NCBI GenBank assembly: GCA_001714685.2
Contig: MDTP02000064.1
Location: 1 to 34,843, forward strand
Length of the DNA stretch: 34,843 nucleotides
Reading direction: 5' to 3'
DNA from: Methanosarcina sp. Ant1
Lineage (GTDB): Archaea; Halobacteriota; Methanosarcinia; Methanosarcinales; Methanosarcinaceae
Shown here: piece by piece, positions 25,576 to 34,843 of the stretch
How positions within the stretch are numbered: the first letter of the stretch is position 1
Layout: each line of letters opens with the position of its first letter
Notes under the pieces: generated by a model
Seen by the model: the letters and a program-made list of their open reading frames with translations, nothing else
The model's database searches: none
Told to the model about the DNA's origin: nothing
Translations under genes and position numbers: made by a program

Positions 25576-26277
25576 TCAGGAGTAAGAGATCAATAACGCT
25601 CTTGCAGGCGCTCCATCACAACCTTCAATTTTAAGAGGCAAGCACAGGAAGAAATAGACCCCCGCATCCACGGAACTGAATTCAAGGCATTCCACAATAT
25701 TTACGTTGCCTGAAAGAAGTATGTGGTGGGCAGGTAGAACTTCAGAATGAAGAATATCCACAGAAAAGTTGTCTATTCCGATGGTTTTGAATCTTTTTTC
25801 GACAATCCAAGACGCTGCACTTTCATCAAGGTATGCGGGATCGAACTCCTCTCCCCCAAATTCCTCGTTCTGAGAGTTTATATCTTCTGCGCCTTTTCGT
25901 TTTAGGGAAGAATCTTCCGTTTTCAGGAGGAGAATAGAGATATTTTCAGAGACCTCTGTATTCAGGAAGGCTTTCTCAAGAATATCGGCAGTCAGTGCGC
26001 CTGTCAGTGAAGAAAAATCGAGAAGAAGTGCTATGCCCATCAGGCTTGCGAGTTCCAGTTTGTCAACAGACAGTCCATTGTTCAGGACATGAGAAGGAGC
26101 ATCAACATGAGTGCCGGTATGGCTTCCGAAAGTTAATCTGGATACTGCACAGCCTTCCTTTTCAAAGGTACAGACTTTCTCAATTGCAGGTTTCGGGTCT
26201 CCTGGAAAGACCCGCGTAAAAAGAGAAATCGGGGTTGTAATGTCTATGATTTTTCCCTTAAATGGATTTTTTTCCAC
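25576..26277 (-). CDS. cyclase family / kynurenine formamidase-like metal hydrolase
   Basis: The protein carries the signature of the cyclase (PF04199) family: GSHTGTHVDAPSHVLNNGLS, giving metal ligands at His60, His64, Asp66 and His70 (numbered from the longest start). These enzymes hydrolyse N-formyl or cyclic amide and lactone bonds; kynurenine formamidase is the best-known member, and the true substrate here is unknown. I prefer GTG 26277, preceded by AAAGGTG six bases upstream, giving 233 residues; an ATG at 26298 adds seven residues encoded by the tandem repeat. A short insertion, SLKRKGAEDINSQNEEFGGE, lies around residues 130-150. It directly follows the ferredoxin gene. Confidence 0.83.
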   Translation of the reverse strand: MEKNPFKGKIIDITTPISLFTRVFPGDPKPAIEKVCTFEKEGCAVSRLTFGSHTGTHVDAPSHVLNNGLSVDKLELASLMGIALLLDFSSLTGALTADILEKAFLNTEVSENISILLLKTEDSSLKRKGAEDINSQNEEFGGEEFDPAYLDESAASWIVEKRFKTIGIDNFSVDILHSEVLPAHHILLSGNVNIVECLEFSSVDAGVYFFLCLPLKIEGCDGAPARALLISYS

Positions 26278-26353
26278 ATTAAACACCTTTTTCCACATTA
26301 AACGCTTATTTCATATTAAACGCCTTATTCCATATTAAACGCCTTATTCCATA
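26272..26353. repeat. tandem 19-bp repeat across the ferredoxin/cyclase junction
   Basis: Units close to TTCCATATTAAACGCCTTA are repeated four times (26272-26290, 26291-26309, 26310-26327 and 26328-26346), with a partial fifth copy entering the ferredoxin 3' end. The third unit is one base short. The array covers the ferredoxin stop codon, the gap and the possible longer cyclase N-terminus. Confidence 0.85.
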
Positions 26354-26529
26354 TAGATAATTGATCTGTTTGTGCACGCATCTATACACTCCATGCATAG
26401 AGTGCATTTTTTCTGGTCGATTTTTGAAAGCTCGTTTTCTTCGTAAATTGCGCCCACGGGACAAACATCCTTACATTTCCCGCACCTTTTGCAGCCGAAA
26501 ACCACTACGTATCCAGTCTTCTCTGACAT
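26344..26529 (-). CDS. 2[4Fe-4S] ferredoxin
   Basis: A 61-residue electron carrier with two complete 4Fe-4S motifs: CKRCGKCKDVCP (Cys14, 17, 20, 24 counted with the TTG at 26532) and CTLCMECIDACT (Cys43, 46, 49, 53). The second motif lacks the usual proline after the last Cys. ATG 26529 has AGGT seven bases upstream and is preferred. The gene is followed by the cyclase-family gene on the same strand and is divergent from the radical SAM gene, which needs electrons; the ferredoxin may serve either. Confidence 0.93.
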   Translation of the reverse strand: MSEKTGYVVVFGCKRCGKCKDVCPVGAIYEENELSKIDQKKCTLCMECIDACTNRSIIYME

Positions 26530-26628
26530 CAATGAACCTTTAGTACTTATGATATATTAGTCTCTGGGAAAAATTCCGTTTTCATTAAATTTCCTGATCA
26601 TGAGTGTAGCGATACCCGGAAACAAGCC

Positions 26629-26661: not shown

Positions 26662-27723
26662 ATGGAAAACTTCACTGAAGACAAGACTGGCTCTTTTAGC
26701 AGTTACCTTTCAGAAGGTTGCAGGCTCTGCCAGGAAGGGGCGAAAATGGTACTTTTCGTAACAGGTCTTTGCCCTAAAAGTTGCTTTTACTGTCCACTTT
26801 CTGATGAAAGAAGCGGAAAAGACCTTATTTTTGCAAATGAAAGGTCTGTAAAAAACGATGAAGATTTACTAAAGGAAGCTGAGCTTATGGATGCCCTTGG
26901 AACGGGGATTACAGGCGGAGAGCCCCTCCTGAAAATAGAAAGAGTCCTGCATTATATCAGGATGCTGAAATCCTCTTTCGGAAAAAAACACCATATACAT
27001 CTTTATACATCTCTGGCTCCAGATAGGCAAGTACTTGAAAGACTCGCCGAGGCAGGCCTTGATGAAATTCGTCTACACCCATCGCAGGAAAGCTGGGGAG
27101 ATCTCAAGCACAGTCCGTATGCAGATGCCCTTCAAAATGCAAAAAAACTGGGAATAGAGGCAGGAATCGAAATTCCTGCCCTTGAAGGAGCTGAAAAGGT
27201 TGCAGCTTTTGCTGAAGAGATGGAAGTTTTTCTTAACCTGAATGAACTGGAGTTTTCAGATAACAACTCAAAGGCCCTCCTGAAAAGTGGCTTTTCCCTC
27301 AAGTCAGACATATCCAGCGCGGCTGAAGGCTCCTGTAAATATGCTGAAACTGCCTTTTCTGCATGTAAAAGAGCTCATTTTTGCTCCTCAACCTATAAGG
27401 ATGCAGTTCAGCTTCGTAAAAGGTTTCAGCGGATCGCAAAGAACACGGCAAGAGGGTTTGATGACACCACAGAAGACGGTACTCTTGTCTATGGGGTTAT
27501 TGAGTGTGGAGATCAAAAACTTGCAGAAGAAATCCTGCAGGATATGGAAGTCCCTTCAGAATTGTTTGAAGTAAAAGACGGGAAAATCGAAATCGCCTGG
27601 TGGGTACTTGAAGAGCTAAAAGAAGCGATTAAAGAAGAATTGGAACCCCTTGGAACCAAGCTTTCCATTATCGAGAGGTATCCGTTTGAAGATGGGATGG
27701 TTGTCGAATTGACCCCACTTTAA
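26662..27723 (+). CDS. radical SAM protein
   Basis: The 353-residue protein carries the radical SAM 4Fe-4S motif CPKSCFYC (Cys37, 41, 44) and the SAM-binding GITGGEPLL (residues 82-90), so it should cleave S-adenosylmethionine to start a radical reaction. A second Cys pair, Cys20 and Cys23 in GCRLCQEG, and several cysteines around residues 225-245 (CKYAETAFSACKRAHFC) may bind another cluster. The C-terminal part (residues 270-353) is an added domain with DTTEDGTLVYGVIECGDQKL. Methanogens have orthologues of unknown substrate. The gene has a TATA box close upstream and is divergent from the ferredoxin gene. Confidence 0.86.
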   Translation: MENFTEDKTGSFSSYLSEGCRLCQEGAKMVLFVTGLCPKSCFYCPLSDERSGKDLIFANERSVKNDEDLLKEAELMDALGTGITGGEPLLKIERVLHYIRMLKSSFGKKHHIHLYTSLAPDRQVLERLAEAGLDEIRLHPSQESWGDLKHSPYADALQNAKKLGIEAGIEIPALEGAEKVAAFAEEMEVFLNLNELEFSDNNSKALLKSGFSLKSDISSAAEGSCKYAETAFSACKRAHFCSSTYKDAVQLRKRFQRIAKNTARGFDDTTEDGTLVYGVIECGDQKLAEEILQDMEVPSELFEVKDGKIEIAWWVLEELKEAIKEELEPLGTKLSIIERYPFEDGMVVELTPL

Positions 27724-28468: not shown

Positions 28469-29002
28469 TCAGGTTTGAAGCTCCCCTACACCATCAAGTT
28501 TCTTAACAACTCTAGCCGGGTAGCCCAGAGCTAGACTATTTGGAGAGATATCACGGTTGACTACGGACCCTACTCCTATTATGGAATTTTCTCCAATTTC
28601 AACCCCCTGAGTGATTATACACCCTGGATTTACAGAAACTCCACGTCCGATTGTTATGGGACCCATGCTTCTTGGATATGCCTGTCTTGTAGTTAAACTG
28701 CCTCTTGAATGTGCAGATAGTATGCATCGATCTCCGATCTCAGCATAATCTCCTATTGTAATTAATTCGGGGTGTATCCTATCAAAAACTACATCGTAAC
28801 CAACGTATACATTCTCCCCGATATTTACACCCCTCATTCTATGCAATTTTGCTCTCCATGAAGGAACAGGAACGCTTGAGGCGAGTCGTTCCAAAATCCA
28901 GTTCTTAAAATATTTAATTCCAAACAGGAGTTTGTTACTGTGGTAATGATCAGCAATTTCGCGAAAGGTTACTTTATCTCTGTTAGATACTACTGCAGTC
29001 AT
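28469..29002 (-). CDS. hexapeptide-repeat acyltransferase
   Basis: The 177-residue protein is a left-handed beta-helix acyltransferase of the WbbJ/maltose acetyltransferase type. Hexapeptide turns are visible from about residue 60 on: IGENVYVGYDVVFD, ITIGDYAEIGDRCILSAHS (with the catalytic-type His), ITIGRGVSVNPGCIITQGVE and IGENSIIGVGSVV, ending with the usual SLALGYPARVVKKL. Such enzymes O- or N-acylate sugars and similar acceptors, with acyl-CoA or acyl-ACP as donor. GGGGGT seven bases before ATG 29002 supports the start. It is the last gene of the minus-strand cluster that starts with an acyl carrier protein, 127 bases after the DUF362 gene, so an acyl-ACP donor is a reasonable guess. Confidence 0.86.
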   Translation of the reverse strand: MTAVVSNRDKVTFREIADHYHSNKLLFGIKYFKNWILERLASSVPVPSWRAKLHRMRGVNIGENVYVGYDVVFDRIHPELITIGDYAEIGDRCILSAHSRGSLTTRQAYPRSMGPITIGRGVSVNPGCIITQGVEIGENSIIGVGSVVNRDISPNSLALGYPARVVKKLDGVGELQT

Positions 29003-29129
29003 AGTATGACCCCCATTTTCAATGAAATCTTTCAGTTTCCATCATTCCTTAATGAATAAATATATTTCTATAGTTAACCCCTTCCTAGAATGAGTTATTA
29101 AGAGGCAGTGATTTTTAATTGGACTTTTT

Positions 29130-30263
29130 TTAGCTTTTACTTCTGGTTATAAGCTTCAGAAGCAATGATTTCTTAATTTCTACCGCATCCTTTGGGCAAA
29201 GTTCACGGCAACAATAACACTGGATGCATTTTTCCTCGTTGATTTTGAGCGACCTGCCTACTTCTTCAATTGCATGTGCCGAACAGTTCGAAACGCATGC
29301 TTTACAAAATGCACAACTTGAAATGTTGATGAAGGGCTTTACAGTTAACTGCTTTCGAAGGATCCTCATAAGAAAGGAGGGCATCATGGCAGTAATTCCG
29401 CCTTCTGGTCTTTTGAACCTGATCTTCACTTCTTCCAATGGTATTCCTACAATCTCCGGATGTTCAGTCCCAAACCCCCTTGAGAGTGCAGCTTTGTTTG
29501 TGGGAACCTTTAAAGGATCGATTCCTATGAGCTCAGAGGCTACGACATCCAGGGCTACGCAGTCATAGCTTGCCATGATCACGCCTGTAAAGATAGGTGT
29601 ACCGTTTGCAGGACCATTCCCTTCCATTCCTACCACACCGTCCATAATTGCAAGATGAGGCTTTACGATGGAATAGATATCAACAACCGCCTCTCCGAAA
29701 CGATTACGGTCTTCCAGGAAGTGAGCCTGCTTTCTGTTTTTCTGAGGTATTGTACCAAAGAAGTTTTTGACCGCTCCTGTATAGAGAGTGAGTTCATGGG
29801 TTTTGAGCTTTGGAAGCGAGATTATTACATCTACCTCGAGTATGGCTCTTGAGATATGGATACGCGAGAACTGAGTGGCACCGGGAACATCAACCTCAAC
29901 ATAACCATAGGTTTCGAAATTGATTAGCCCTACCCCGCAACTTGAAGCTACATCTTCAATACCCGATGCCTTAAATGCCTGAGAAGTGGTAGTAGACCCG
30001 GGTTTTACGATGCCGGATCCGTCTCCTATAATTGGAATACCCCCCGCCTCTGAAACCAGTTCACACATTGCAGCTACTACCGCCGGGTGAGTTGTGACAG
30101 CGTCCTCTGGAGGTCGAATGGCAAGTACATTGGGTTTGAGCAGTACGCGGTTGCCGGGAGATATAATCTTTTCAAGGCCGCCTATCAGGTTAAGCGACTC
30201 TTTGATAGCGTCTTTTGCGTTCGAATAATCGCTGCAGTGAATAATAGAAACCCTGGTATTCAT
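29130..30263 (-). CDS. DUF362 protein with two 4Fe-4S motifs
   Basis: The 377-residue protein begins at ATG 30263 (MNTRVSIIHCSDY), where the DUF362 domain begins; the frame is open to 30335 but the added residues look non-coding. The DUF362 part has VLLKPNVLAIRPPEDAVTTH, IIGDGSGIVKPGS and SLPKLKTHELTLYTGAVKNF, with the conserved Lys/His spots of the family. The C-terminus has two ferredoxin-type motifs, CAFCKACVSNCS and CIQCYCCRELCP, so it carries two 4Fe-4S clusters. DUF362 proteins are often found with methanogen or anaerobe redox genes and their reaction is unknown. It is 254 bases after the NadE-like gene, so it may have its own promoter. Confidence 0.84.
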   Translation of the reverse strand: MNTRVSIIHCSDYSNAKDAIKESLNLIGGLEKIISPGNRVLLKPNVLAIRPPEDAVTTHPAVVAAMCELVSEAGGIPIIGDGSGIVKPGSTTTSQAFKASGIEDVASSCGVGLINFETYGYVEVDVPGATQFSRIHISRAILEVDVIISLPKLKTHELTLYTGAVKNFFGTIPQKNRKQAHFLEDRNRFGEAVVDIYSIVKPHLAIMDGVVGMEGNGPANGTPIFTGVIMASYDCVALDVVASELIGIDPLKVPTNKAALSRGFGTEHPEIVGIPLEEVKIRFKRPEGGITAMMPSFLMRILRKQLTVKPFINISSCAFCKACVSNCSAHAIEEVGRSLKINEEKCIQCYCCRELCPKDAVEIKKSLLLKLITRSKS

Positions 30264-30517
30264 AATCACACATTTGATATACTTAGTAAGTTTGTTTTTA
30301 CCATAACCATATCTTCTGACATTCATATATCTCAATAGACTCTCTAATATAGCCCTGAAGGACCGAGCTTAAAAAATAATATTATTTTGCAATATCTTCC
30401 TTAATATCGACCTGTAAGATTATTTTTATGGTTATGGTGATTTTCTGCGTCAGGCAAAGCTGTAAAATTTAAGACTTCAGCTAAGCTTTTGCCACCAAGA
30501 ATTTGTCTTTCTGCAGT

Positions 30518-31510
30518 TTATCTGTTAAGGTAGTAGATAGGCGGGGTGGCTCGCACATATTCGGTGGTATCTCTTATTTTATTAATGTGCCTTTGAGCTT
30601 TTTCTATCTTGTCTCTGGGAAGCCCCGTGTTCTTTTCAATTATGTGTAGAGGTAAATGATGTTCCTGAGAATACAACAACTGGTCCATGACGTGAATAGG
30701 CATGCGCCAGTAGAACTCTTCATCAGTCGTGTAATGACTCCACGTATCAGCACTTGGTGGGCGTTTCATAATCTCTTCGTTGACATTCAAAAATTTCCCC
30801 AGAGCATAGATCTGAGTCTTATAGCAGTCTGCAAGAGGTTCGAGGTCTACACCTCCATCTCCATATTTTACAAACTGACCAAGGACAAGTTCAGTTTTGT
30901 TAGTTGTTCCGCACACCACATAGTTCAGCTTTTCTGCATACATGTACTGGATTACCATTCTGGATCGCTGCTTAACACCCTGCAACCCGATTAATTCCAA
31001 GTAATCATTCGCCTTCAGCCTGTATTTTGCAACCGTTTCGCCATCCTTTATTAACCGAATATAAGGGACGTTCAAAAGCCCCTGGTTAAGAAAATCAGGC
31101 AGTACTAATGAAGTTTTGTGGATTCTGGGATCATATTCTGGACAGGTTCTCTTTATAATCTGTTCCTTCTTTTCATAAATGTTAAGCGATTCCAGGATTG
31201 GAGAGATAGGAACCTCCTCATACTGCACACCCAGGCTTTCACAGATTTCTGTGCCCAGAGTTCTACTGGAAGGAGCAGATTCTTTTTCAGGAAGAAGAAT
31301 ACCATATACTTTTTCCTTCCCCAACTCCTGTACGCACAGGGTAAGAGCTACAGCTGAATCAATTCCCCCTGAAACCCCTAATACTACCCCTTTTTTCTTA
31401 AAACTCGATATTTGACTTTTAATAAAACTTCTTATATTTAAGGCCAGATTTTCAATATCTCTGTTCAATTTTTCCATTATCTGAACATTAAGTTCTTCCA
31501 CTACCTGCAT
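30518..31510 (-). CDS. NadE-like amidating ligase (NAD synthetase family)
   Basis: The 330-residue protein has the full NAD synthetase core: the PP-loop LGVSGGIDSAVAL (about residues 43-55), the ATP/substrate motif CGTTNKTELVLGQFVKYGDG with DLEPLADCYKTQIYALGKFL, and the C-terminal RPPSADTW. Family members convert a carboxylate to an amide by adenylation and ammonia transfer. Compared with the 250-275 residues usual for ammonia-dependent NadE, it has an insert of about 55 residues (near 115-170, with CPEYDPRIHKTSLVLPDF). It lies in a carrier-protein cluster, so a role in amidating another carboxylate is plausible, but NAD synthesis is not excluded. AAGGGGG upstream of ATG 31510 is a good ribosome binding site. 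Confidence 0.87.
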   Translation of the reverse strand: MQVVEELNVQIMEKLNRDIENLALNIRSFIKSQISSFKKKGVVLGVSGGIDSAVALTLCVQELGKEKVYGILLPEKESAPSSRTLGTEICESLGVQYEEVPISPILESLNIYEKKEQIIKRTCPEYDPRIHKTSLVLPDFLNQGLLNVPYIRLIKDGETVAKYRLKANDYLELIGLQGVKQRSRMVIQYMYAEKLNYVVCGTTNKTELVLGQFVKYGDGGVDLEPLADCYKTQIYALGKFLNVNEEIMKRPPSADTWSHYTTDEEFYWRMPIHVMDQLLYSQEHHLPLHIIEKNTGLPRDKIEKAQRHINKIRDTTEYVRATPPIYYLNR

Positions 31511-31546
31511 AGCATTTCCCCCTTAATGATTTGACTGTTTTTAGCA

Positions 31547-32584
31547 TTAAATAGCAGTTAATATTTTTTGAGAATTTTTCACATTCATTTTGAGCTTCTT
31601 TGCAGCTTCCTCTATCAGCTGCTTAGATAGCTCCTGGTTAATTTTTTCAAATCCTTCTTCTCTAGACATTTCCCCACTTCGGACAAGCCCTGCTGTATCA
31701 AAGGCATAAGGATGGAATCCATATTTCTCCAGATGGTTATAGCAGGCAAAGGAGTTCAATGTACAATTGGTCGAATTGCTGTCATTGATGCCCGGTAATT
31801 CCCACCCGATTTTCAACAATGTCTCCAGTACTTTATCTTCACTATAATCCCATAGGCAAAGAGGATGCAGGATACTTGGAGCATTCTCACCCATATCTTT
31901 AATTACCTCACTTTTTATGAGGAACAACTCATCTTTATCGTCAACACCTATTTTTTGAAGCTGTTTCTCAAATAGGGTCCTGGACCACCGTACAAAACTG
32001 GTTGAGAGCTCAATTATGGGGTTAGGAGATTGTCCGGCTGTGAAAGCAAATACAATAAAAGGTGCTTTCTGAATAATGGCCTGCTCTATCAGCTTCTGTT
32101 TGATGATAGTAATACAGACATTACATATATCACTGGCTCTATATTTGGCAAACTTAGGAAATGCATCGTATGATTCGGCCGCATTTCGGAATGTATCGTA
32201 CAGTATCTCCTTTTCCATTGTCAGCTGGAAATAATCGCAGCCCGTGATCTTGCACATCTTTCTGGCATTTTTTATTGCATCTTCAGAAGTAAATCCGTTA
32301 TCGAACTGGACAGCCAACACCTTCAGGAAAGGATATTCTTTTTTGAGTTTGTAAAGCGTGTATGAAGAATCCTTCCCACCGGAAAGTGCATAAATCACGT
32401 CATAATTGCCCTTCCCGCTGTAATTTTTAAAAAGCTTATCAATTTTGCTCAGATATTCACTCTTTTCCTGTGAGGAAAGAGGGGTGTATGTCTCACAAAA
32501 ATGACAGAGACCAGTTTCCTTATTAATGTCTATGCCTGGAATATCCGAATCCAGAACACATTTTTTACACACTAGCTTTGACAT
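31547..32584 (-). CDS. PP-loop ATPase, N-acetyl sugar amidotransferase-like
   Basis: The 345-residue protein has a zinc-finger-like N-terminus with Cys6, Cys9, Cys27 and Cys30, then the PP-loop YALSGGKDSSYTLYKL (residues 65-80, core SGGKDS) that adenylates a substrate, and later HPLCLWDYSEDKV with another Cys. This arrangement is that of the WbpG/PseA-type enzymes which amidate sugar carboxyl or carbonyl groups during surface polysaccharide synthesis, with ammonia from a partner. No HisH/HisF-like partner is in the window, so ammonia could come from elsewhere or another reaction could be involved. ATG 32584 overlaps the end of the AMP-ligase gene by 20 bases. Confidence 0.82.
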   Translation of the reverse strand: MSKLVCKKCVLDSDIPGIDINKETGLCHFCETYTPLSSQEKSEYLSKIDKLFKNYSGKGNYDVIYALSGGKDSSYTLYKLKKEYPFLKVLAVQFDNGFTSEDAIKNARKMCKITGCDYFQLTMEKEILYDTFRNAAESYDAFPKFAKYRASDICNVCITIIKQKLIEQAIIQKAPFIVFAFTAGQSPNPIIELSTSFVRWSRTLFEKQLQKIGVDDKDELFLIKSEVIKDMGENAPSILHPLCLWDYSEDKVLETLLKIGWELPGINDSNSTNCTLNSFACYNHLEKYGFHPYAFDTAGLVRSGEMSREEGFEKINQELSKQLIEEAAKKLKMNVKNSQKILTAI

Positions 32585-34043
32585 GTTTGTATTCCTCTAT
32601 GATGGATCGATTGGATATTTTCCCGTTCTCGCTCAATGGGAGATGATCTATGAGCAGTATCTCTCTTGGGCACAGGTAACCTGGAAGGCTCTTCCGGCAG
32701 AATGCAAAAAGATCATCGGTTTCTGTTCCTTCTATAGGTATCACCATGAGGCTGATCGCAGTTCCCATAAGCTCATGGGGTACAGGCACAACAAAAACCT
32801 TGGAAACCTTATTGTTCTCCTCTATATGCCTTTCAATTTCTCTTGGGTTCACACGATGGTCCCCGATTTTAATAAGATCATCCTTGCGCCCCAGAAGTCT
32901 GATATATCCATTGGGCAATTTTTGTGCAAGATCTCCTGTATGCAGCCACCCATTTATGATCCTCTTCTTAGTAGCGATTTCATCATCCAGATAACCTAGC
33001 AGGATATTGTCTCCCCTGGCAACCAGTTCACCTGTTATGTTTGGCTCTACTGATCTGCACTCAGAATCGAAGACTTCCAGCGTAACCCCGGGAATTGATT
33101 TTCCTATAGTGTCAACGAATTTGTCCACATCTTCTGATGGCAGGTAGGCAAGCCGTGCTGTGGCTTCGGTCTGGCCATACATTGGCAGAATCTTTAGATC
33201 AGGAGCTAAATCAAGGATATCTTTTACAATTCCCCTATCCATGCCTCCGCCTGCGGATGCGGCAGTTCTGACATTAGTAAAAGATTTTTTGAATCTATCT
33301 GGATATCGGAGAAGTATACGATAGGTACTGGGCACTCCATAGAATATGGATACTCCTGACCCTATCAGATTGAAAACCGAATCAATAAAATTCATGTTTC
33401 CGATTCTGATTGAGCCTCCAGCCATAATATGGGAATCGATAATGGAATTCCCAAAAGCATGGTGAGGGGATATTACCAGTGCCCCTTTATCTTTAGAAGT
33501 TATGCAAAGTACTTCTATTATCGATTCTGCATTTGCTACCAGGTTTCTGTCACTCAACATAACCCCTTTTGGAGTACCTGTTGTTCCCGAAGTGTACATA
33601 ACCAATCGCAGTTCCGGATTATTTGTCTCAGATTCGATTTTCTTACGCAGAATATTTAATGAAGTATCGTTGGAAACAACGATTACGGTTCCAAAACGCT
33701 CAAAAAAATTCTCCCCAAATCTTGAATACTGCGTATCTGTTACAATTATATTATTGACATTGGCAGCATCAAGGATTAACTCAAGACTGAACTTAGGAAA
33801 CTCTATAGGCAGAGGGATTGCGATGTTAGCTGACCTATATACAGCCATTAGTAATTTTATGTACTGTATACCTGTTTCTGCCAGTATTGCAAATCTGCAA
33901 TGTTTAAAATCCATCAGGGGTGAGGCAATGATATTTATATCCCTGTCAAGACAACCATAAGAAATTGAATTTTTGCCCTCCTCCAGGGCAATGTTTTGAG
34001 GAGTTTTTCTGGCGTATTCCGTGATATACGCATCAATTCGCAT
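32565..34043 (-). CDS. AMP-forming acyl/aminoacyl ligase (ACP-linked)
   Basis: The 492-residue protein belongs to the AMP-dependent synthetase/ligase superfamily (ANL). It has the P-loop MYTSGTTGTPKGVMLS (residues about 149-164), MYGQTEATARLAYLPSED near 290, GWLHTGDLAQ near 368, the hinge GRKDDLIKIGDHRVNPREIE near 388, and the conserved catalytic Lys in LPLSENGKISNRS close to the end. This set is typical of enzymes that activate a carboxylic acid as an acyl-AMP and transfer it to a thiol. The adjacent ACP gene, six bases away, suggests transfer to that ACP's phosphopantetheine arm. The substrate (amino acid, fatty acid or other) cannot be read from sequence by eye. Confidence 0.9.
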   Translation of the reverse strand: MRIDAYITEYARKTPQNIALEEGKNSISYGCLDRDINIIASPLMDFKHCRFAILAETGIQYIKLLMAVYRSANIAIPLPIEFPKFSLELILDAANVNNIIVTDTQYSRFGENFFERFGTVIVVSNDTSLNILRKKIESETNNPELRLVMYTSGTTGTPKGVMLSDRNLVANAESIIEVLCITSKDKGALVISPHHAFGNSIIDSHIMAGGSIRIGNMNFIDSVFNLIGSGVSIFYGVPSTYRILLRYPDRFKKSFTNVRTAASAGGGMDRGIVKDILDLAPDLKILPMYGQTEATARLAYLPSEDVDKFVDTIGKSIPGVTLEVFDSECRSVEPNITGELVARGDNILLGYLDDEIATKKRIINGWLHTGDLAQKLPNGYIRLLGRKDDLIKIGDHRVNPREIERHIEENNKVSKVFVVPVPHELMGTAISLMVIPIEGTETDDLFAFCRKSLPGYLCPREILLIDHLPLSENGKISNRSIIEEYKHVKASV

Positions 34044-34049
34044 ACTTTT

Positions 34050-34295
34050 TCACTTCGCCAGTTTTTTTACCATATTAGTAATTCCCTGCAATGAGTCAAA
34101 ATTTTCCGGTGTCAGCATCTCTTCAGGAATTTCAATAGAATATTTCTCACTGATATAGTCCATGAGTTCAAGCAGACCAATGGAATCTATGACACCCTTC
34201 TGAGTAAGGGAGTCATTATCTTCCAAGTTGGTGCCCTTGTCCATAAAAGAGTTAGCTTTCAAATAATCTACTATAACATTTTTTATCTGTTCCAT
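34050..34295 (-). CDS. acyl carrier protein
   Basis: An 81-residue carrier protein from ATG 34295, which has GGGGAT about six bases upstream; longer frames to 34346 would add a non-conserved leader. The phosphopantetheine site DSIGLLELMDYIS gives Ser38, and the four-helix pattern with acidic helix II (DYISEKYSIEIPEEM) is clear. ACPs of this size load acyl or aminoacyl groups. Archaea have few ACPs because they do not make fatty acids by a type II synthase as bacteria do, so a lone ACP with a dedicated ligase points to secondary metabolism or surface modification. It is the promoter-proximal gene of a tightly packed four-gene unit. Confidence 0.9.
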   Translation of the reverse strand: MEQIKNVIVDYLKANSFMDKGTNLEDNDSLTQKGVIDSIGLLELMDYISEKYSIEIPEEMLTPENFDSLQGITNMVKKLAK

Positions 34296-34780
34296 ATATC
34301 GTATCCCCTTTGCTTTCATTTGTTTGGCATCGATTGTGAGTAACACACCTCTATTCCCTTGTAGTCTGAAAGCCCATTGCTAGTTATGCGATACAACTAT
34401 ATAAATAATTTGAGGCTATTTGCTCGCAAGATAAAATTATGCACAAAAAATTAGATATAAAGAGAATGCTGTAAAAGTGGCAGATGAATGTGCTTTAAAG
34501 AAAATAAATTTAGTATAGATAGACCAGCATGTCATAAAATATAGATATGAACTATCTAATATTATATAGACGATAGAAGCACTTAACACAGTAGATTTAA
34601 ATTAAGAGATTATAACAATTTAATAAGGTGGAAAAAACAAGTTTTTAATAAAATTTATTAAGTACAGCCACTTCATTGGATCTTTATTTGTAACTATTCA
34701 GATAGCCTTTCAAAGGCTACAATTTTTTCTCGTTTCGAGGAAAAATTGCATATAAATTGAATCCTATTTGTTTCGTTATT
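34296..34780. other. AT-rich promoter region of the ACP cluster and edge of a mobile element
   Basis: Minus-strand ATTTATATA at 34398-34406 is a good TATA box for the ACP operon, about 100 bases before its start codon. No gene lies here. A perfect hairpin TAGCCTTT/AAAGGCTA at 34703-34719 followed by a T-run is at the right side, 60 bases before the transposase-like start; it is either a terminator or part of an insertion element end. Confidence 0.5.
34398..34406 (-). promoter_or_regulatory. TATA box of the ACP operon
   Basis: ATTTATATA on the minus strand lies about 100 bases before the ACP ATG. With an archaeal spacing of about 25 bases, transcription would begin near 34375, leaving a leader of about 80 bases with the GGGGAT ribosome binding site. 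Confidence 0.5.
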
Positions 34781-34843
34781 ATGCTTACACGTGAAGAGAT
34801 TTTTGTTATCTATGAAGCTGGTCCTGAAGCTGTAATTTCTGTA
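34781..34843 (+). CDS. transposase N-terminus, IS66-like, cut by window end
   Basis: The window ends 21 codons into an open frame starting ATG 34781: MLTREEIFVIYEAGPEAVIS. This resembles the helical N-terminus of IS66-type transposases in archaea (REEI, then YE.GPEAV). A TATA-like GCATATAAA lies about 30 bases upstream and would be part of the element. Identification rests on these few residues only. Confidence 0.5.
   Translation, partial: MLTREEIFVIYEAGPEAVISV

Follow-up and report, generated by a model that had tools for sequence, protein, structure and literature searches.

We analyzed a contig of 34,843 nucleotides from Methanosarcina sp. Ant1 (GenBank MDTP02000064.1; G000:C64 among the genomes and contigs compared here), which was taken in full and is called the window below. 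Six genes on its minus strand encode an acyl carrier protein (ACP), an adenylate-forming ligase (LIG), a PP-loop enzyme (PPL), a NadE-like enzyme (NADE), a DUF362 protein (D362) and a hexapeptide acyltransferase (HEX). All six open reading frames (ORFs) exist, and their family matches (PP-binding; AMP-binding with its C-terminal domain; WbuX-like PP-loop; NadE PRK00876; DUF362 with 4Fe-4S; hexapeptide) agree with the assignments in a preliminary description of this DNA. That description joined all six genes in one ACP-dependent pathway. The dependence on an ACP is supported by the present analysis; the six genes are, however, not one unit, since D362 and HEX are separable from a core of ACP, ligase, PPL and NADE, to which a 4'-phosphopantetheinyl transferase (PPTase) encoded outside the window also belongs. 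The features are listed in Table 1.

Table 1. Genes and other features of the cluster, with positions in the window.
Feature	Position	Strand	Remarks
ACP, acyl carrier protein	34050..34295	-	81 aa; 4'-phosphopantetheine site Ser38 in DSIG
LIG, class I adenylate-forming acid:ACP ligase	32565..34043	-	492 aa; PF00501 + PF13193
PPL, PP-loop (AANH) enzyme	31547..32584	-	SGGKDS; Cys154/Cys157/Cys274 triad; four N-terminal Cys
NADE, NadE-like ammonia-dependent amide-forming enzyme, PRK00876 subfamily	30518..31510	-	NF002048, 487.8 bits
D362, DUF362 protein, accessory module	29130..30263	-	two C-terminal 4Fe-4S motifs; PF04015, 209.7 bits
HEX, left-handed beta-helix (hexapeptide) acyltransferase, accessory module	28469..29002	-	PF00132
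Conserved TATA-box segment (TCAAATTATTTATATAGTTGT)	34393..34413	-	~100 bases upstream of ACP start; 13 aligned loci
TATA-like site (GAAATATATTTAT) upstream of HEX	29056..29068	-	recurs in several of 13 aligned loci
Repeated element, probably an insertion sequence (IS), start of transposase-like ORF	34687..34843	.	83% identical to L047:2876-3035

The spacing of the first four genes is exactly as first described: ACP and LIG are separated by 6 bases, the start of PPL lies within LIG (-20), and 36 bases separate PPL from NADE; cotranscription of these four genes is supported as probable. The ACP start kept among relatives is the ATG at 34295, rather than the GTG at 34346, and with this start the reported Ser38 site holds. 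The D362 start kept among relatives is the ATG at 30263 (377 aa) and, therefore, the gap between NADE and D362 is 254 bases. All six genes evolve under purifying selection, with dN/dS of 0.03-0.23 in comparison to four relatives. The gene order, which the preliminary description had proposed to compare with other genomes, is kept across dozens of them, and the TATA-box segment is near-identical in 11 of the 13 aligned loci. The dN/dS values, the kept order and this segment show that the gene set is not a product of chance.

A seventh gene belongs to this set. Directly upstream of ACP, 15 of 16 surveyed loci of relatives contain a gene for a protein of 225-255 aa that carries the Sfp-type motifs G-[IV]-D-x-E and W-T-x-K-E-A; its Asp133, Glu135, Glu173 and Ala174 are invariant, and W169 and K172 are nearly so. 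Its PF01648 scores are weak (17-22 bits in Methanosarcinaceae and 25.4 bits in locus L083, with the cut-off at 25). The motifs, together with these weak matches, identify the upstream gene as a PPTase. A PF01648 profile search of the source genome returned no PPTase, which is a false negative of the model: with a relative's protein as the query, a divergent PPTase was found at the end of contig C132, next to a gene that also adjoins the PPTase in relatives. It is missing from the window because the contig ends in the repeated, probably IS, element; from synteny, C132 and C64 appear to be neighbors in the genome. In the source-genome PPTase (G000:C132:12585-13280, locus L053), the Trp of WTLKEA is replaced by Phe. 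The protein has more in common with the L044 type (63%) than with those of most other Methanosarcina (about 50%), a preference that its ACP-ligase-PPL neighbors do not show.

The distribution of the genes was followed in 112 Methanosarcinaceae genomes and in a phylum sample of 393 genomes. PPL was found in 51 of the 112 family genomes, and NADE in the identical 51. The PPTase, for which the preliminary description had suggested a search, is present in 49 of the 51 PPL-positive genomes versus one of the 61 PPL-negative ones (Fisher p = 3.8e-28); the two positive genomes without a match are 60% and 81% complete, and the one extra PPTase occurs in a genome that is 86% complete. In the phylum sample, PPL and PRK00876-type NADE above cut-off were detected in the same 33 genomes, and a PPTase scoring over 100 bits was found in 32 of these 33 and in no other genome. 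The shared presence and absence indicate a cassette that is accessory, patchy and inherited as a block. The preliminary description was to be refuted by the lack of a PPTase and of a kept gene order; as both are present, it withstands this check. A role in an essential methanogenesis cofactor was rejected because 61 of the 112 family genomes lack the core. ACP, PPL and NADE are linked in three archaeal families: in a genome of another family (G274, locus L083) one locus of about 6 kb contains GNAT, ligase, PPTase, PPL, ACP and NADE, and in a third family (G393) a GNAT-like gene homologue, NADE, ACP and PPL adjoin polysaccharide genes. The core is PPTase-ACP-ligase-PPL-NADE, with a FabG-like short-chain dehydrogenase/reductase (SDR) in other genera. 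It should be noted that some Methanosarcina genomes (G103 and G075; loci L090, L091 and L093) have two or three ACP-ligase-PPL(-NADE) copies and only one PPTase. The M. acetivorans genome contains the NadE-like gene.

The ACP scores 21.3 bits against PF00550 (cut-off 20.8), its top NCBIfam match is the cispentacin ACP AmcB, below the cut-off of that model, and it is 51% identical to the PPL-adjacent ACPs of the two other archaeal families. In the ligase, the catalytic-type Lys475 and Gly198 are both invariant in the aligned family. Gly198 replaces the aspartate at the Asp235 position of the amino-acid adenylation domains of nonribosomal peptide synthetases (NRPS), and the ligases of the bacterial cassettes described below likewise lack this alpha-amino-binding residue. 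Therefore, the substrate is expected to be a carboxylic acid outside the standard alpha-amino acids, and the loading of an alpha-amino acid was rejected. Ligase genes are frameshifted or shortened in L031 (two ORFs, 8534 and 9343), L038, L092 and L016, owing to either sequencing errors or decay. NADE passes the NF002048 cut-off of 313 bits, as does a Nitratireductor member with 513.4 bits. It shares the ATP pyrophosphatase (ATP-PPase) fold and the catalytic motifs with NH3-dependent NAD synthetase (NadE); however, it has an insert of about 55 residues, belongs to the PRK00876 subfamily, and clusters with an ACP and a ligase. Since the genome encodes a canonical NadE elsewhere (contig C103, 271 bits), we rejected a function of NADE in making NAD. 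The label "NAD(+) synthase" is probably functionally wrong for PRK00876/NF002048 proteins, considering their clustering with ACP and ligase and the separate canonical enzyme here.

TIGR03573, the family of WbuX, WbpG and PseA, is the best-scoring named family for PPL; the score of 115.8 bits is below the cut-off of 203.2, which L099 and L100 pass. The predicted structure, of moderate quality (mean pLDDT 69), is nearest in fold to Legionella WbuX (8wex), followed by NcsA, LarE and TtuA. PPL shares the overall fold and the N-terminal four-Cys motif with the WbuX group and differs from it, besides the score, by an extra cysteine triad, the linkage to an ACP, and the lack of a glutaminase or cyclase partner in the cluster; no HisH/HisF-type ammonia partner was recognized beside the core in the surveyed loci, the rest of the genome not having been searched for one. 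The triad is invariant in 49 of 49 distinct sequences and is absent from the true WbuX of a related genome (L099); PPL also has the PP-loop residues Asp72 and Ser73. Judged by scores and motifs, PPL is a PP-loop protein, as first described, and WbuX-like, but not an ordinary N-acetyl sugar amidotransferase; its cysteine triad is of the [4Fe-4S] type, and the enzyme probably carries such a cluster. A C-x2-C motif with a distal cysteine is the pattern of NcsA/TtuA-type enzymes. PPL has the PP-loop fold in common with NcsA/TtuA and LarE, the [4Fe-4S] thiolases; however, these act on tRNA or cofactor substrates, and the spacing between C-x2-C and the third cysteine of PPL is nearer to that of CtaC.

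CtaC makes thioamides on a carrier protein and needs Asp77, Ser78, Cys154, Cys157 and Cys284 (PMC6772006). PPL conforms to this PP-loop, C-x2-C and distal C pattern, the likeness being one of motif and published CtaC residue positions. The closthioamide system and the archaeal cassette both belong to anaerobes, and both combine an acyl ligase and carrier proteins that stand alone with an AANH enzyme that has a PP-loop and a three-Cys motif (PMC6772006), whereas the ATP-grasp, transglutaminase-like and second peptidyl carrier protein genes of the former have no equivalent in the latter. The motif VCNGC ... S-x-NC is also found in PPL homologues of Roseovarius and Streptomyces. In an NRPS of Roseovarius an adenylation domain harbors the homologue, which is followed by the C-terminal part of that domain and by the carrier domain, so that ligase, PPL and ACP form a single module there. 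The Streptomyces homologue is joined to a condensation domain; these fusions suggest that ligase, PP-loop and carrier act together. The Roseovarius gene is located on a plasmid (L097:9424-17472), within a nonulosonate/polysaccharide cluster, and the PP-loop is in the first adenylation domain. A similar cysteine pattern, MMCIAC ... FDC, occurs in a second WbuX-like PP-loop family of Methanosarcina (L101, L102, L103, L122).

A bacterial counterpart of the cluster was found in a survey of plasmids. In alphaproteobacteria, a PRK00876-type NadE adjoins an ACP, an AMP-ligase and AsnB; this set is present in S. meliloti, Mesorhizobium, Azospirillum, Nitratireductor and Shinella, and in S. meliloti pSymB the order is AsnB-ACP-ligase-NadE, as detected by tblastn. 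Thus, the gene set, for which the preliminary description knew of no described pathway with exactly these members, does have a described relative, and the S. meliloti operon is reported by Ramos-Vega et al. (2009) to include an asparagine synthetase and NadE. A literature search found no paper dealing with the archaeal cluster. The two systems have an adjacent ACP, AMP-ligase and PRK00876 NadE in common, plus an ATP-PPase amidotransferase, with identities of 34-36% for NADE, 26-30% for LIG and 28-35% for ACP; a GNAT-like protein accompanies some alphaproteobacterial members. The S. meliloti-type cassette has a glutamine-dependent AsnB, whereas the archaeal cluster contains no AsnB gene and has in its place the three-Cys PP-loop enzyme, along with a linked Sfp-type PPTase. 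We therefore regard the archaeal cluster, by its gene content and similarities, as a new archaeal variant of the bacterial ACP-ligase-amidotransferase-NadE cassette, in which AsnB is replaced by a PP-loop enzyme. The bacterial cassette itself is known, but it is not understood in terms of its product. Its ligase and AsnB resemble the exosortase/exopolysaccharide-associated families TIGR03098 and TIGR03108. In E. coli, the S. meliloti ligase SMb20650 led to in vivo acylation of the ACP SMb20651 (PMC7232532), and this pair is very probably that of the pSymB operon. In P. gingivalis, the TIGR03108-related AsnB WbpS (PGN_1234) makes a uronamide in the linking sugar, and the predicted N-acetyltransferase VimA is believed to attach an amino acid to this sugar (PMC7468200).

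Gene content, order, motifs, co-inheritance and fusions are read directly from the genomes, and we infer from them that the ACP is the site of the chemistry. It seems reasonably probable that the genes form a carrier-protein tailoring cassette of methanogens. On the ACP, this cassette would make an acyl group that bears an amide, amidine or thioamide, and the group would then be handed on, probably to a glycan of the cell surface. The PPTase encoded on contig C132 would arm the ACP, and the ligase would activate a small carboxylic acid that is not one of the standard alpha-amino acids and load it onto the arm. PPL, probably with its [4Fe-4S] cluster, and NADE may each act on a carboxyl or amide group of the tethered acid, adenylating its oxygen and exchanging this for nitrogen or sulfur, to yield an amide, amidine or thioamide. 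An acyltransferase would then pass on the finished group, the most likely recipient being an amino sugar in a glycan of the cell surface; HEX may have this role here, and a GNAT-like protein in the two other archaeal families and Azospirillum. The glycan acceptor is suggested by the context of extra copies and relatives, and makes the surface-sugar role proposed in the preliminary description plausible. In genome G103, two extra core copies are followed by two GT2 glycosyltransferases, a flippase and a group-1 glycosyltransferase, and copies or homologues in L084, Azospirillum, Roseateles, Roseovarius and Paludibaculum are found within polysaccharide clusters.

Several observations speak against this scheme. 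In Methanosarcina, the main copy lies outside any glycan cluster and has no glycan neighbors, which makes the glycan acceptor the least secure part of the scheme. The cluster encodes no glutaminase partner, which would leave free ammonia as the nitrogen donor. The core-positive genome G393, which is 97% complete, has no recognizable PPTase. Finally, the PPL model does not place Cys274, being too uncertain past residue 266 to show whether the three cysteines meet in space. A more specific version, an archaeal thiotemplated pathway in which an Fe-S PP-loop enzyme installs a thioamide (or amidine) on the ACP-bound acid and the product decorates the methanogen surface glycan, has a low probability.

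An alternative that we consider possible, at a low probability, is a diffusible small thioamide or amide metabolite made by a closthioamide-like, NRPS-independent thiotemplated route, with HEX and DUF362 as unrelated neighbors. The PP-loop and cysteine residues of PPL are of the kind shown to matter in CtaC (PMC6772006), the triad recurs in homologues that form part of NRPS proteins, and the main locus contains no glycan genes. However, the cluster lacks a condensing enzyme, a second carrier protein and an exporter, the likeness to CtaC is one of residue positions, and extra copies and distant relatives lie within polysaccharide clusters.

It is unlikely that a single operon and a single pathway comprise all six genes, with DUF362 redox chemistry and HEX transfer as obligatory steps. 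D362 and HEX do come after NADE in almost every Methanosarcina and in genus g12, and both associate with PPL (Fisher p = 2e-18 and 4e-19, respectively). Nevertheless, a close D362 homologue is present in 37 and missing in 14 of the 51 core-positive genomes, and HEX is present in 40, not always linked to the core, and missing in 11. Both are missing from most g7 and g11 members, where the FabG-like SDR follows NADE. In three of four g5 genomes a D362-HEX pair is several kb or more away from the core, and five g14 genomes have a D362 homologue (66-68%) and no core. The TATA-like site upstream of HEX suggests a separate HEX transcript. By this distribution, D362 and HEX are an accessory module, separable from the core. 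The predicted structure of D362 (mean pLDDT 42) is unusable for fold comparison. Three further genes, for a radical SAM protein (window positions 26662-27723), a small ferredoxin (26344-26532) and a putative cyclase (25576-26298), stay beside the cassette in many Methanosarcina.

We consider improbable an ordinary sugar pathway, in which PPL and NADE would serve WbuX-type acetamidino formation and uronamide or NAD synthesis, with ACP and ligase as mere neighbors. The fold of PPL, nearest to a Legionella N-acetyl sugar amidotransferase, and its best named family agree with such a pathway, but its score below the TIGR03573 cut-off, the triad absent from the true WbuX, the lack of a HisH/HisF-type partner in the cluster, and the canonical NadE encoded elsewhere do not. 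In addition, linkage of ACP, PPL and NADE in three archaeal families and a PPTase that tracks PPL are not expected of mere neighbors. A general fatty acid or acetate CoA ligase next to a relic ACP, with no carrier-bound chemistry, is very improbable: the best matches of LIG are general acyl-CoA ligase models, every one below its cut-off, whereas the ACP serine motif and a dedicated PPTase are retained, LIG resembles TIGR03098 as do the bacterial cassette ligases, and SMb20650 cannot replace FadD (PMC7232532).

Biochemistry on carrier proteins is commonly seen as a trait of bacteria and eukaryotes, and ACPs are seldom found in archaea. Here, a group of methanogens keeps an ACP plus its own PPTase; in the phylum sample this PPTase type, at over 100 bits, was found only with the cassette (32 of 32 genomes) and, therefore, the two appear to be a closed system, one that is readily testable in the genetically tractable M. 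acetivorans. The PPL family connects these archaeal genes to NRPS-embedded enzymes, and many genes labeled as NAD(+) synthase (PRK00876) are suggested to be biosynthetic paralogues. A thiotemplated glycan pathway, if true, would be, to our knowledge, the first case in which an archaeal glycan receives an acyl decoration made on a carrier protein, and it would be the archaeal equivalent of closthioamide chemistry.

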